Assembly (NCBI GenBank): GCA_963575745.1
Contig: CAUYUJ010014360.1
Coordinates: 277,028-341,027 of the forward strand
DNA length: 64,000 bases
From: Prorocentrum cordatum
Lineage: Eukaryota > Sar > Dinophyceae > Prorocentrales > Prorocentraceae
Direction of reading: 5' to 3'
In this document: positions 12,924-53,725 of the stretch, piece by piece
Layout of the letters: every line of letters starts with the position of its first letter
Position numbering within the stretch: the first letter of the stretch is position 1
Notes under the pieces: model-generated
Database searches by the model: none
The model's input: the letters and a program-made list of their open reading frames with translations, nothing else
Told to the model about the DNA's origin: nothing
Program-made: the position numbers and the translations under genes

Positions 12924-15900
12924 TCAGGACGCCTTGCTTCCGTTGCCTAGCAACGCTTTCCGCAAGCCGCTCCGGCACGCCAGCTTGGAGTGCGAGGCCC
13001 CGTACGCGACGTACGCCAGGGAGCACACCAGCACGAACGCAACCACGTTCACCAGCGGCCCCAGCCCGAGGGACAGTGCTACGTAACAATTCGCGGCGAT
13101 GGACACGAGGGGCACGACCGGCACAGCCGGGCACAGGAACTGCGCGCCCGCCGTTGTACCTGCACCACACTTTGCCCAAATGAGGCCGAACATACCAGCG
13201 GAAACAGCTGCCAAGGAAACACACATCCACGTCGCCATGGCGTAGCCTTGATGAGATGCCAAAGATCCGATAAACACACTACCAGTGTAAACTGGCAAAG
13301 CGATGTCGAACATGCTCTCGTATACCCGGCTTGTGTCGAACACGTTTGAATAACGAATGCGCAGCAGGCCGACGCCAACAAATACATATACCAACAGGAT
13401 GCCACAAGACACTGTCATGGCCAGAGTGGAGAAGTCTGCAATGCCGGAACATAAAGCTGTGAACCCACCGACAAATGCAGTACCCCACAGCGGCGTCTTC
13501 GTGGTGGGATCAATCTTCTTGAACGGGGAAGGGATAAGTCCATCCTTTGCAACAGCGTACAGCAGGCGGGGCTGCGCCATGATCGAAGCAAAAGAACTTG
13601 CCCAACAATTCAGCACGGCTGAAAACGTAATCATGTAGAAAGCCCACGATATACCTTTCATTACGAACGCATGGGCGAAAGGTGCGACATCATCCAGCTG
13701 GCTGTAGTGCACCATTCCTGTGAGGGCAAAACCGATGCCAACGTACGCCACTGTAACAATCGCGAGGGATCCCAGCAGCCCCCGGGGCACCAACTTTTCA
13801 GGATTAGGGATCTCCTCTGCTAGCGTACCGACTGCGTCGAAACCATTGAACGCATAAAAGATCACCGACGAGCCCGACAGCACACCGGCGGCACCGTTTG
13901 GGCAGAAGTCGTCAGTCCAATTGCTCGTGTCAGAGTTCATGAGGCCAACAACTATGAATATGACGATCATGATGACATTAGCCGTTGCCACGATGTTCCC
14001 GAATGCTGTCGACATGTTGGTGCCCCTCATGATTATCATTGTCAGCAAGATTGACTGGAGTGGAGCGAGGAGGCTCAAGTTGATGCCCTGGGATATTGGG
14101 ATATCCAACAGAAAGCCTGTGGGGAACGGAAGCGTACGAACACGACGACCAAGAGACGGACTAAATCTAGTTGTTCGGAACTGTCCGCTTCGGAGAGAGA
14201 CGTTTCAGACTGTCCTCCGCTCTCAATTCGGTAAATATCTGGCAGATTCTGGTATCCCGAATGGCTAGAAGCCTCATATGGCATCAAGACATCAGGACTC
14301 CCGCAGACGCGAATAGGAGTGAGACACTACCCTGGGTTCGAGAAGCCGAGATGCACGCAACAGGCGACGATCTTTCCCAAATTAGGCTTTGCTTGTTGAC
14401 TTGTTGTGCAAGAAGGCCGTTGGCGTCCATATGGGACATGCCCCGGGCCCCCCAGGGTTAATTCTGGGGCTCCGTGGGGTCCCCAGGGGTTCCTCGGGCT
14501 GTCATGCCATGCAGCGGTTTGCTTCGCTATGCCATGCTATGCAGTGTAATGATACGCTGCGCACAGCTATACCACTCTACGCCAAGACATGCCATGCAAT
14601 GCAATGCAATGCTACGTGCTGGTTTTCTTGGCCATCCGATAGAAGGTCTCTCTATGCTAGGCCATCCCGTACGATGCAATGCAACACTATGCAATGCCGT
14701 TCACGGCCATCCAGGATTTTGCAGTACTCCCTTAGGCATGCAATAATAGTGGCACCATGCCATGCAATGTAGCGTTATACCGTACTGTACTGTGTACTGC
14801 TATGGTATGCGATGTAATGCTCAACGATGGTTCACTACGCGTTGCCGTGCTATCATACGCTATGCACTGCTATAAACTGATATGTGCTGTGTTGCGCCGT
14901 TCCCGATGCCACGTGAACGACACTATGCTCGTTTTTGTTCAATGCGATGATACGCTATGCTGGCACGGTGCGCTGTGCTATGCGATGCAATGCTATGGGC
15001 TGCTTGGAAATGTCATCATATGTTGAGTTGCGCAGCACTACGCAACGATCTTCACAATATGAAGCCTCTCCAACGCTATGTCGGTCTATGCTGTGTTGAG
15101 TATGTCGCGGGCGGCTGATCTGGCGGGGTATCATACCGTCGTGACGGGTGGCCGTGCACACTCTGCCTGTCGTTTGAGCCATCAATTCCCTCTTGTTAAA
15201 AAACTTCGCCGCAAGTTCACTCTTAGTGGAAGGAATTGGCCGTCAACGCTCTCTTGACGGGCTCCGTCCGAATTGACGGACGTTGTTGATGGCCTCACTC
15301 CGGTTTGACGAGCCCCCTTGACGGCCTTGCCTCGACTTGACGAGCCCCCTCACAACACAGCGTAGCGTGTCTACGCTGTGCTGTGACAAACTATGCCATT
15401 GTATGGTCTGCTTTGTCATGCTATCCAGTGGCACGTGTTTCTGCCATCGCATCATCTGCTCGGCGGCGAGCCCCCTCACAACACAGCGTAGCAGTTCTAC
15501 GCTGTGCTGCGACAAACTATGCCATTGTATGGTCTGCTATGTCATGCTATCCAGTGGCACGTGTTTCTGCCATCGCATCAGCTGCTCGGTGGTGCCATGC
15601 TGGGCGTTGCTGTGATGTGCAATGAGCGCTTCACACTATTTAGAATTCAATAGTTTGCCTTGCATTGCATCGCATGGCGACGAATTGTACTGCTCGTGCC
15701 TACATAGAAATGCCCCATGAAGTGAAGATGTTCCGCCGAAGACGCAACTTTTCGTGCAATCGTGGGCCCCTGGCCGCCCCGGCTGCTCTGGTTCGAAGAC
15801 GTCAGCCCCAGAAGCCCGCCGTCAGTGCCGACTGCCGCTGTCGGCGGCGAGCGAGGGGGGGAGGAGCGAGGACGAGGAGGACGAAAAGGAGGACGGGGAG

Positions 15901-41800: not shown

Positions 41801-41839
41801 GTGCCTGTTGGTGCGGCTGTGTGAATTCGGTGTGCTCTG

Positions 41840-42264
41840 CCGTGCTCCTGCGTGTTCTGCCGTGCTCCTGTGTGTTCTGTCATGATCCTGTGTATTCTGC
41901 CATGGTCCTGCTCTGCCGTGCTTCTATGTGTTCTGCCGTGCTCCTGTGTGTACTGTCGTGCTGCTTGCTGCTTGTTCTGCCGTGCTCCTATGTGTTTTGT
42001 GTAATCCGCCGCGCTCCTGTGTGTTCTGCCATGCTCCTGTGTGTTCTGCCGTGCTCCTATGTACTCTGTGTGTTATGCCGTGCTCCTCGTGATCCTGCGT
42101 GTTCTGCCGTGCTCCTATGTGTTCTGCCGTCAATTCTGCCGTGCACATGTGTGTTCTGCCGTGCTCCTGTGTGTACTGCCGTGCTGCTATGTGTTCTGCC
42201 GCGCTCCTGCTTGTTTTGCCGTGCTCCTATGTGTTTTGTGTGTTCTGTCGTGTTCCTGCGAATT
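41840..42264. repeat. TGTTCTGCCGTGCTCC minisatellite, left block
   Basis: Units of 22-24 bp: TGTTCTGCCGTGCTCCTGTG with TATGTG and TGCTTG variants, about 18 copies. Continues on the far side of the retrocopy at 43664, same orientation, so one array was split. Confidence 0.9.
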
Positions 42265-42455
42265 AAAGTTAAAGTTAAAGACGGGGCCTTCAAGGCAAGC
42301 GGTGGCCAGAACGCAGACAGAGGAGGCCGCCTTGGGCCCCCTCCCAGACACGTGCAGCACAGACAGAAGGCGAATCCTCTGGTATATACTACACAAGACA
42401 CTCGCAACTGCACTGATCCATTCACCCACTGCGTGTTCTGCGGGGCCTATACGAG

Positions 42456-43598
42456 TTACAGTCCTCCGCACAACCTGAGAAGGCGATCGATCTCTCTGGC
42501 GCGCTCAACAGACATCCCAGGCGGAAGGGCTTCAACCAGACGAGGCCCGACCGCGAACCTCGCCCTATGATGCAGCGGCCTCCGCGTGGGAGGAATCCTG
42601 AGGCCAAAGGAGCCGCCCTGGACCAAGTGCATGAGGTCAACGGCCTTTGCGTGGCGCGTCCAGGCGGGGCCCAGAAACCCTGGCGCGCTCCCCCGCCGAA
42701 GAATACCACGCAGGCCCGAGCAGCTCCCAATCTCGAAAACTTGCGGGGCATCTGCAAAGCGGACTCTCCGCGCCCGCAGCGCGCCGCCCGCAGCCTCGGG
42801 GACGGCGTCCTCGTCCAGCGAAGGCTCCAGCCAGGCTCTGGCGACTGCCGCGCGCGCCAGCCGCCAGCCAGGGGCGCGACGAGATGCCCCACTGCCAGGC
42901 TGCGAAACTGGCACGGCGCCCTGCGGCGGGCCCGCGGCCCCACTCACCCCCTCAGAGCCGTCGACCAGGGCGAGGGGGGCGCCCCTGGTCGGAAACTCAG
43001 CAGCAGCCGCCTCGCCACACGGAGAGTCCTCGTCGCCGTGATCCTCGAACACCTCCTCCGCAAAGAGCTGCGGCGGGGAGCGCGACGACTAGCACGTCGC
43101 GCCGCGCGTGCAGAGGCGGCCGCAGCCGTCCAGCGGCACCCAGCAGCCCGAGCTCGGGACGAAAGGGGGCGCGTCACGACGGAGCCCGCTCTCGGCCTCG
43201 AGGGGCGGGGGGCCCTGCAACAGCATGTGAGCCGCGGGCTGGGTGTCCGCCCTCCTCGCCTCGAGCCTACGCGCGTGCTTCCGGGCCCTGCGCAGTTCGG
43301 CATGGCCAGCTGAGACCAGAGACGCGCCGCAGGGCCCCTCGGAGTGGAGCGCCACGTTGCGCCGCAGGATGTCCAGCGCCTCAGGCCGCTCGCCCGCGAG
43401 GAGGGACGCGAGGGCAGGAAGAATACAGGCGACCCTCTCCGCAACCTCCGCGTCGCCGAAGAGGTGCAGCAGCGCAGACTCGAAGGCGAGAGCCTTGCGG
43501 TCAGCGGCCTCCGGCCTGTTCTTCAGCTTGAAAACGAGCCGGTCGGCGGACGCGCGCGCGCCGGCTACCCCGCGGAGGGGCTCTCCCGCAGCCGCCAT
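42456..43598 (-). pseudogene. Intronless retrocopied reading frame, one in-frame stop, function unknown
   Basis: ATG at 43598-43596, 28 nt after the older leader relic, opens MAAAGEPLRGVAGARASADR. The frame runs 380 codons to a stop at 42456-42458 with one interruption, TAG at 43089-43091 (codon 170). N-terminal part is helical (EALDILRRNVALHSEG). The C-terminal part holds RVRFADAPQVFEI near residue 278, an RVxF-like pattern of the kind seen in protein phosphatase 1 partners; that reading is inference. C-terminus ends REIDRLLRLCGGL. About 190 nt of 3' untranslated sequence follow. Readthrough, or a stop gained after retrocopying, are both possible. Confidence 0.75.
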
Positions 43599-43626
43599 GC
43601 CGAGCTCAGGGGGCCCCGCGTGGAGC

Positions 43627-43641
43627 CTTGAGCCAGCATGG
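43627..43641 (-). other. Older, truncated DinoSL relic
   Basis: CCATGCTGGCTCAAG follows the complete DinoSL directly. It matches the last 15 nt of the leader with two changes (TT to GC). A second, decayed leader implies the transcript had already been retrocopied and trans-spliced once before. Confidence 0.88.
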
Positions 43642-43663
43642 CTTGAGCCAAAATGGCTACGGA
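43642..43663 (-). other. Complete DinoSL relic
   Basis: All 22 positions match the dinoflagellate spliced leader (first base T, allowed by the consensus D); core CCATTTTGGCTCAAG. It abuts the target-site duplication with no extra base. No GT donor follows, so this is a cDNA relic, not an SL RNA gene. Confidence 0.97.
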
Positions 43664-44085
43664 TGTGTTCCTGTGAATTCTGCCATGCCCTTGCGTGTTC
43701 TGCCGCGCTCCGGCTTGTTCTGCCATGCTCTGCCGTGCTCCTTCTGCTCCTGTGTTCTGCCGTGCTCCTGCGTGTTCTGCCGTGATCCTATGTGTTCTGC
43801 CGTGTTCCTGTGTGTTCTGTGTGTTATGCCGTGCACCTGCGTGTTCTGCCGTGCTCCTGTCTGTTCTGCCGTGCTCCTGTATGTTCAGTGTGTTCTGCCG
43901 TGCTCCCCGTTCTCCTGTGTGTTCTGCCGTGTTCCTGTACGTTCTGGTGCGCTCCTGTTTGTTCTGCCGTGCTCCTGTGTGTTCTTTTTATTATGCTGTG
44001 CACCTGTGTGTTCTGCCGTGTTCATGCATGTTCTGTCGTGCTCCCGCGCGTTCTGCCGTGCTTATGTGTGCTGGTCTGCGGTAGT
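43664..44085. repeat. TGTTCTGCCGTGCTCC minisatellite, right block
   Basis: Same 22-24 bp units and orientation as 41840-42264, about 17 copies, with CCCCGTTCTCC and TTTTATTATGC variants. Confidence 0.9.
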
Positions 44086-52634: not shown

Positions 52635-53725
52635 AGGAAGTCTCAGGCGGGAGCTTCGTCTGTGAGTGAATTGTGAGGAAGTCTCAGGCGGGAGCCCCGT
52701 CCCTATGGAGCCCGCACTTCATGTTGGTAATCCGAGCGGGTCATCCGAAACGTGTAACTGTCGTCACTTTTGGGCTCTTGAGGCCTGAGTATGGAGGAAG
52801 TCTCGAGCGGGAACCTCGTCTGTGAGTGAATTGCGAGGAAGTCTCAGGCGGGAACCCCCTCCCTATGGGGCCCGCGCTTCTCCGAGCGGGTCATGTGGTC
52901 GTCACCTCGAGCCTCGTCCATTCTCCCGCGCTTCATGTTGGTAATCCGAGCGGGTCATCCGAAACGTGTGTCGTCACTTTTGGGCTCTTGAGGCCTGAAT
53001 ATGGAGAAGCTCGAGCGGGAGCCTCGTCTGTGAGTGAATTGCGAGGAAGTCTCAGGCGGGAGCCCCCTCCCTATGGGGCCCGCACTTCATGTTAATCCGA
53101 GCGGGTCATCCGAAACGTGTAACTGTCGTCACTTTTGGGCTCTTGAGACCTGAATATGGAGGAAGTCTCGAGCGGGAGCTCGTCTGTGAGTGAATTGCGA
53201 GGAAGTCTCAGGCGGGAGCCCCCTCCCTATGGGGCCCGCGCTTCATGTTGGTAATCCGAGCGGGTCATCCGAAACGTGTAACTGTCGTCACTTTTGGGCT
53301 CTTGAGGCTGAATATGGAAGAAAGCTCGAGCGGGAGCCTCGTCTGTGAGTGAATTGCGAAGAAGTCTCAGGCGGGAGCCCCCTCCCTATGGGGCCCGCAC
53401 TTCATGTTCGAATCCGAGCGGGTCATCCGAAACGTGTAACTGTCGTCACTTTTGGGCTCTTGAGGCCTGAATATGGAGGAAGTCTCGAGCGGGAGCCTCG
53501 TCTGTCAGTGAATTGCGAGGAAGTCTCAGGCGGGAGCCCCCTCCCTATGGGGCCCGCGCTTCATGTTGGTAATCCGAGCGGGTCATCCGCAACGTGCAAC
53601 TGTCGTCACCTTTGGGCTCTTGAGACCTGAATATGGAGGAAGTCTCGAGCGGGAGCCTCGTCTGTGAGTGAATTGCGAGGAAGTCTCAGGCGGGAGCCCC
53701 CTCCCTATGGGGCCCGCTTCCCGAG
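52635..53725. repeat. About 160-bp tandem repeat, seven copies
   Basis: Starts of GAGGAAGTCTCAGGCGGGA recur near 52675, 52846, 53043, 53200, 53358, 53517 and 53678. Each unit has CCTATGGGGCCCGC, CTTCATGTTGGTAATCCGAG, CGGGTCATCCGAAACGTG and CACTTTTGGGCTCTTGAGGC. A second GGAAGTCTCGAGCGGGA lies late in each unit, so the unit arose from two half-units. High identity suggests recent homogenisation. Confidence 0.95.

Follow-up and report, generated by a model that had tools for sequence, protein, structure and literature searches.

How did an intronless reading frame headed by a spliced leader come to lie inside a minisatellite of the dinoflagellate Prorocentrum cordatum, and how often had it been copied from RNA before it arrived there? 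In the 64,000-nucleotide stretch of DNA analysed here (the window; contig CAUYUJ010014360.1), a preliminary description had recognized an mRNA retrocopy on the minus strand, carrying two generations of leader and flanked by a target duplication. It had taken this for an unusually clean case of a single gene. Trans-splicing of leaders onto mRNAs is established dinoflagellate biology. Leader relics, including several in series, are established signs of retroposition in these organisms according to the pertinent passages of PMC3229502, PMC12014239, PMC7245778 and PMC6050394. The observation at this locus proved largely real. At one key point its reading gives way to a more informative one, in which leader-capped retroelements whose 3' portion is LINE-like form a family.

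The element begins with an exact, full-length DinoSL of 22 nucleotides (43642..43663, minus strand). The 21-mer at 43642-43662 matches with 0 mismatches, 100 shuffles gave 0 matches, and the T at 43663, the first letter of TCCGTAG, completes the leader at its 5' end. Directly 3' of this outer leader is a 15-nucleotide relic, CCATGCTGGCTCAAG (43627..43641, minus strand), which starts with CCAT, the truncation falling at the AG that follows nucleotide 7 of the leader, and which has 2 mismatches, both common to the family described below. From the relic to the ATG there are 28 nucleotides (43599..43626, minus strand). All of this agrees with the preliminary description, as do the roughly 190 nucleotides of 3' sequence after the stop codon. 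The 380-codon intronless frame it reported is present as an ORF of 381 codons including the stop (42456..43598, minus strand; type I hereafter), but it is not clean: an in-frame TAG interrupts it at codon 170 (43089-43091), where the paralogue P0001 has a tyrosine. The 3' untranslated stretch of about 160 nucleotides (42297..42455, minus strand), recognized from an alignment of 13 copies, lacks about 95 nucleotides at 42400/42401 that all 12 other aligned copies have kept. A spliced intron was considered for this gap and rejected, as neither possible boundary, placed by eye, is GT-AG; we read the gap as a deletion unique to the window copy among the 13 aligned.

The 3' end has features that went unmentioned in the preliminary description. 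A 16-nucleotide hairpin motif, GCCTTGAAGGCCCCGT (42281..42296, minus strand; predicted fold -3.7 kcal/mol), is common to unrelated bodies. It is followed by a (CTTTAA)3 tail (42263..42280, minus strand) in place of poly(A), which is absent. The two copies of the target duplication are AATTCACAGGAACACA on the 5' side (43664..43679, minus strand) and AATTCGCAGGAACACG on the 3' side (42249..42264, minus strand), the AA of the latter overlapping the last AA of the tail. A minisatellite with a period of about 20 bp encloses the element on both sides, at 41830..42235 beside its 3' end and at 43665..44070 beside its 5' end (Tandem Repeats Finder).

The protein of the window ORF matched no Pfam domain at E<=1. 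Eight of its nine database relatives at E<=10 are from P. cordatum, and wider protein searches returned 8 matches (the query included) and 14, P. cordatum being the source wherever one was named. Three of the relatives, P0004, P0009 and P0010, start with PFWLK, which translates CCATTTTGGCTCAAG and gave a first indication that they too may bear leader remnants. No tRNA gene or Rfam match was found within the window, and the head is a DinoSL rather than one of SINE type (tRNA-, 5S- or 7SL-derived, with a pol III promoter). Elsewhere in the window, an open frame at 12927-14204 (minus strand) has strong amino-acid permease domains (PF13520, E 2.6e-29), and no other of the 20 window frames scanned gave a clear Pfam family; five 159-bp tandem units with a 93% match (Tandem Repeats Finder) lie at 52925-53717, outside the element.

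The window copy is one of many. A family search of the 4.13-Gb P. cordatum assembly, with 40 of 646 candidates scored, gave at least 49 matching pieces, many of them nearly full length, at 85-95% identity. Twenty loci were excised (L002-L021, with L002 the window copy), and 18 of them had a readable head. The outer leader is exact in nine of these heads, and the relic carries the same two changes (GC) in all 18; the relic must therefore have been mutated already in the source and not at the window locus. From that source, the window copy attests to a single retrocopy event. That an earlier leader underlies the relic is supported. Additional generations do occur, since three leaders stand in series in L008 (the same place in L023), namely TCCGTAGCCTTTTTGGCTCAAG, CCATTCTGGCTCAAG and CCATGCTGGCTCAAG, and an extra relic is also present in a longer element of another type, L026 (8056). 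L008 has the sole three-leader head among the 18.

In pairwise comparison, 19 copies differ by 4.9% on average, and the tree is nearly a star, with terminal branches of 0.2-4.7%, mostly above 1%, so the family stems from one or a few sources that already had the leader and the mutated relic. The 380-codon frame is open in 6 of 16 copies, with a dN/dS of 0.73 (ratio of means over the 120 pairs of 16 copies). The displayed 3' region of the aligned copies contains no intron, and no intron-containing parent was found among the 40 scored of the 646 candidates. L018, which starts inside the ORF, is the one clear case of a 5'-truncated copy.

In the main form a copy closes with GCCTTGAAGGCCCCGT followed by two to four CTTTAA units, of which some have variant bases, and poly(A) is absent from these ends. 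The motif is fixed in the 13 aligned copies. A genome-wide count gave 124 exact occurrences of the string GCCTTGAAGGCCCCGTCTTTAACTTTAA and 0 of its reversed control. We typed the first 30 of the 124 exact motifs, in contig order, by the longest sense ORF within 1.5 kb upstream of the motif; three of the 30 (L047, L051 and L061) are the tails of the window-family loci L018, L003 and L004. The type I ORF lies upstream of the motif in 13 loci (12 by BLASTP clustering and L047 by TBLASTN), a longer, polyprotein-like ORF (type II) in 16, and neither group in L059. Proteins of the two types have no BLASTP link at E 1e-5. A stem-loop with short tandem repeats at the 3' end is common to both element types.

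Type II relatives may be very numerous: a loose first look gave 60,060 candidates, and the 78 of them that were scored yielded at least 86 matches. A leader with 0-2 mismatches heads five of the seven type II stretches examined: it is exact in L022 (3.7 kb) and L066, has 1 mismatch in L025 (3.1 kb) and L063, and 2 in L062. No leader was found in L064 at <=4 mismatches, and L065 offers nothing closer than a leader-like string, at 3 mismatches. Measured by coordinates on one contig, from the exact leader of L066 (C6213:507715) to the tail of L052 (512528), a type II element is about 4.8 kb long.

There is also a second class of 3' end. L013, L014, L016 and L017 terminate in GCCTTTATAGGCCCCGC, GCCTTTAATAGGCCCCGC or GCCTTCATAGGCCCCGC, with a similar hairpin and without hexamers; repeats resembling (ACAGAC)n surround three of these copies, and the DNA around the fourth seems non-repetitive. 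In the tree they cluster with L011, which has the usual tail. The occurrence of the other end in four copies means that the hexamer tail and the minisatellite are not obligatory, and the 3' end seems exchangeable, one body being joined to different 3' ends. By a separate observation, L029, L030, L014 and L017 have the same body and another 3' end such as GCCTTTATAGGCCCCGC, again lacking hexamers, and they lie in repeats of the (ACAGAC)n kind or in DNA that seems non-repetitive.

In the window, the 16-mers at 43664-43679 and 42249-42264 agree at 14 of 16 positions, as the preliminary description had stated. By itself this agreement is weak evidence: when random cut pairs are drawn from the flanking minisatellite, 31% do equally well if the edges are flexible, and in a fixed register 1.3% of them reach 14/16. 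It is convincing only through a family-wide test, in which the sequence before the leader was compared with that after the tail in own and in swapped pairs, with minisatellite composition retained. The test comprised 17 elements with both ends detected by script; L004 (10/13 by eye) was left out, as were the four copies with the second class of 3' end (L013, L014, L016 and L017). Own ends scored 9.8 on average and swapped ends 0.25 (sd 5.1), and the observed sum was reached in 0 of 20,000 permutations. The own partner ranked first for nine elements, second for six, fifth for L025 and twelfth for L007; the latter scored -1, probably because the script ended its tail too early. The window pair scored 11 (15 bp with 1 mismatch). 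Target duplications are thus real across the family, and the flanking duplication of the window is upheld as a genuine one.

The duplications vary in length from 10 to 17 bp. In 11 of the 17 elements the best duplication begins with an AA that overlaps the last AA of the tail, and in 10 of those 11 the AA is preceded by CAG (by eye). L012 has a 13/13 duplication unlike the minisatellite, with a degenerate unit upstream, and L029 has a perfect one (14/14, 14 bp) in DNA that looks non-repetitive by eye. In 24 of the same first 30 loci, the 300 nucleotides that follow the tail contain two or more minisatellite units, and the corresponding controls gave 1 of 30 at 900-1200 nucleotides from the tail and 0 of 204 window bins; six of the 30 tails have fewer than two units downstream. 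The same minisatellite lies immediately upstream in 14 of 20 loci (by eye). At L022, L023, L025 and L026, different leader-headed elements were seen in series within one minisatellite, several of them within 10 kb.

We consider it very probable that the insertion represents a type I retroelement present in many copies, itself probably non-autonomous and made by LINE-type 3'-end copying of a trans-spliced RNA. The presence of the host leader at the 5' end implies trans-splicing of the RNA that was copied, and where the leader is full, copying went as far as the cap. LINE-type, target-primed insertion with a recognition end common to both element types is indicated by four features together: the target duplications, the invariant 3' end, the 5' truncation and the shared hairpin-repeat tail. 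In the proposed cycle, a source copy would be transcribed, and trans-splicing would add a fresh 22-nucleotide DinoSL 5' of the old relic, a fixed feature of the family, giving the heads observed. The RNA would be picked through the 3' hairpin, GCCTTGAAGGC, and the (CTTTAA)n tail that it has in common with type II. A LINE-type reverse transcriptase from type II or a relative may then copy it where the target has been nicked, frequently at CAG^AA within the GGCAGAACACACAGGAGCAC minisatellite. Copying would run to the cap and leave a duplication of 10-17 bp, matching the ends, duplications and target preference seen in the genome. The type II pieces, in which several frames are broken and most elements are partial, gave no Pfam match to a reverse transcriptase (RVT) or endonuclease; the sole Pfam hint in type II was an RNase_H in L058 at E 0.013, below the cut-off, and one type II piece had no solved-structure match at E<=10. 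Reverse-transcriptase and endonuclease strings had at one stage been read in the type II ORFs, a claim that Pfam did not confirm and that we dropped.

The claim that the insertion is an mRNA retrocopy with a leader is therefore right as to its origin from RNA with a trans-spliced leader, but what was copied belongs to a repeat family. The earlier caveat, that the leader match might be part of a repeated family unrelated to mRNAs, is likewise half borne out: the family is repeated, but it is one of leader-capped transcripts. The supposition of an unusually clean single-gene case is likewise not supported.

One could still regard these copies as ordinary mRNA retrocopies of a highly expressed host gene family that was repeatedly retroposed, the shared 3' end being simply its own 3' UTR. 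Leader-tagged retrogenes are common in dinoflagellates, as the relevant portions of PMC6050394 and PMC12014239 indicate, and a frame open in 6 of 16 copies with a dN/dS of 0.73 would suit a weakly constrained host gene family. However, one 3' UTR is insufficient to explain a motif that stands behind two unlinked protein groups (13 and 16 of 30 loci), and a target preference of 24/30 would be unexpected for casual retrocopies, so we regard this explanation as unlikely. Still less probable is spread at the level of DNA, in which the element travelled within minisatellite blocks that underwent duplication or conversion, and what look like target duplications are minisatellite units. The minisatellite found by eye just upstream in 14 of 20 loci would fit such spread, as would the weak result of the single-copy test in the window (31%). 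It is already disfavoured, since own ends outscore swapped ends taken from the same minisatellites, and the duplications of L012 (13/13) and L029 (14/14) are not minisatellite units.

The history proposed in the preliminary description, a single gene with two private retrocopy rounds whose inner leader decayed in place at the window, fares no better, and we give it hardly any credence. A leader followed by a truncated relic is a known signature in the sections of PMC3229502 and PMC12014239 that treat retroposition, and the third leader in L008/L023 is in keeping with repeated rounds. Yet the same two relic changes in all 18 readable heads are not local. The two-generation history holds for the source of the family only; as a private history of the window copy it is refuted.

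The copy of a LINE-type, leader-capped retroelement that we favour has partial counterparts among known systems. DinoSL-relic retrogenes were reportedly described by Slamovits and Keeling in 2008. In the relevant parts of PMC3229502, PMC6050394 and PMC12014239, these have a genomic leader, a relic cut after nucleotide 7 and an intronless frame downstream, and several relics mean several rounds; a repeat family, a 3' end common to other bodies, duplications and a preferred target, all seen here, are not met with in those parts. The present element likewise has a DinoSL and relic directly upstream of a frame in genomic DNA. Stringent LINE/SINE pairs (UnaL2) are characterized by a short tandem-repeat tail shared with a non-autonomous partner, by target duplications and by 5' truncation of LINE copies. 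Such elements also have a 3' stem-loop, which in the LINEs is recognized by the element's own protein, and the portion of PMC4176376 on ZfL2, a zebrafish LINE of the L2 clade, describes this recognition as strict. The elements studied here differ in having a host spliced leader for a 5' end and a putative partner enzyme, and in that the proposed non-autonomous member has a 380-codon ORF and no detected tRNA-like head. Site-preferring non-LTR elements such as R1/R2 and SLACS/CZAR resemble them in inserting repeatedly into one repeated target, but the 20-bp minisatellite that serves as target here is not an obligatory one. The Symbiodinium LINEs with a DNMT ORF1, as presented in the pertinent sections of PMC5890265, are dinoflagellate LINEs with an upstream ORF, whereas the frames scanned here yielded no DNMT domain; 'spliced leader' occurs 0 times in that paper and 'trans-splic' once. 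A literature search at title and abstract level, mostly within openly available work, found no description of repeat families that are headed by a leader and share a 3' tail or target minisatellites.

 No relatives of P0001 or of the type II ORF were confirmed in IMG/VR. An AT-rich contig filed there as viral, IMGVR_UViG_3300045993_001077 (L001:1936-2913), has two exact DinoSLs 147 nucleotides apart, the second of them 45 nucleotides before a G+C-richer ORF of 254 amino acids, and a neighbouring ORF with glycosyltransferase domains. It looks like either a dinoflagellate leader-bearing cDNA that a large DNA virus has picked up or a host contig filed in the wrong place.

The review PMC6050394, in its passages on the matter, gives the type of retroelement behind dinoflagellate retroposition as unknown and favours LTR elements of the Ty1/copia group, to which the corresponding part of PMC3942190 also points. 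At least for the window family, the duplications, the hairpin and hexamer tail, the 5' truncation and the lack of poly(A) point to LINE-type target-primed insertion and not to LTR elements. Under the name P. minimum, which according to an excerpt of PMC10449503 P. cordatum formerly bore, the relevant section of PMC12014239 lists 477 retrogenes, from transcripts; the exact 21-nucleotide DinoSLs in the assembly are far more numerous, at 14,218 (reversed control 0). The word 'relic' occurs 0 times in the P. cordatum multi-omics study PMC10666404. A genomic DinoSL can head a mobile repeat, and this matters for retrogene counts made from leader relics alone. A broader and more doubtful suggestion, which we offer tentatively, is that any transcript gaining a GCCTTGAAGGCCCCGT(CTTTAA)n end might turn mobile by means of a LINE-type enzyme, with trans-splicing rebuilding its 5' end in each cycle. 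Much leader-tagged retroposition in P. cordatum would then be 3'-end-directed and not casual, and the 14,218 leaders could largely be the heads of such elements and of sister types. The family described here provides a concrete clue to how bloom-forming dinoflagellates copy mRNAs back into the genome.
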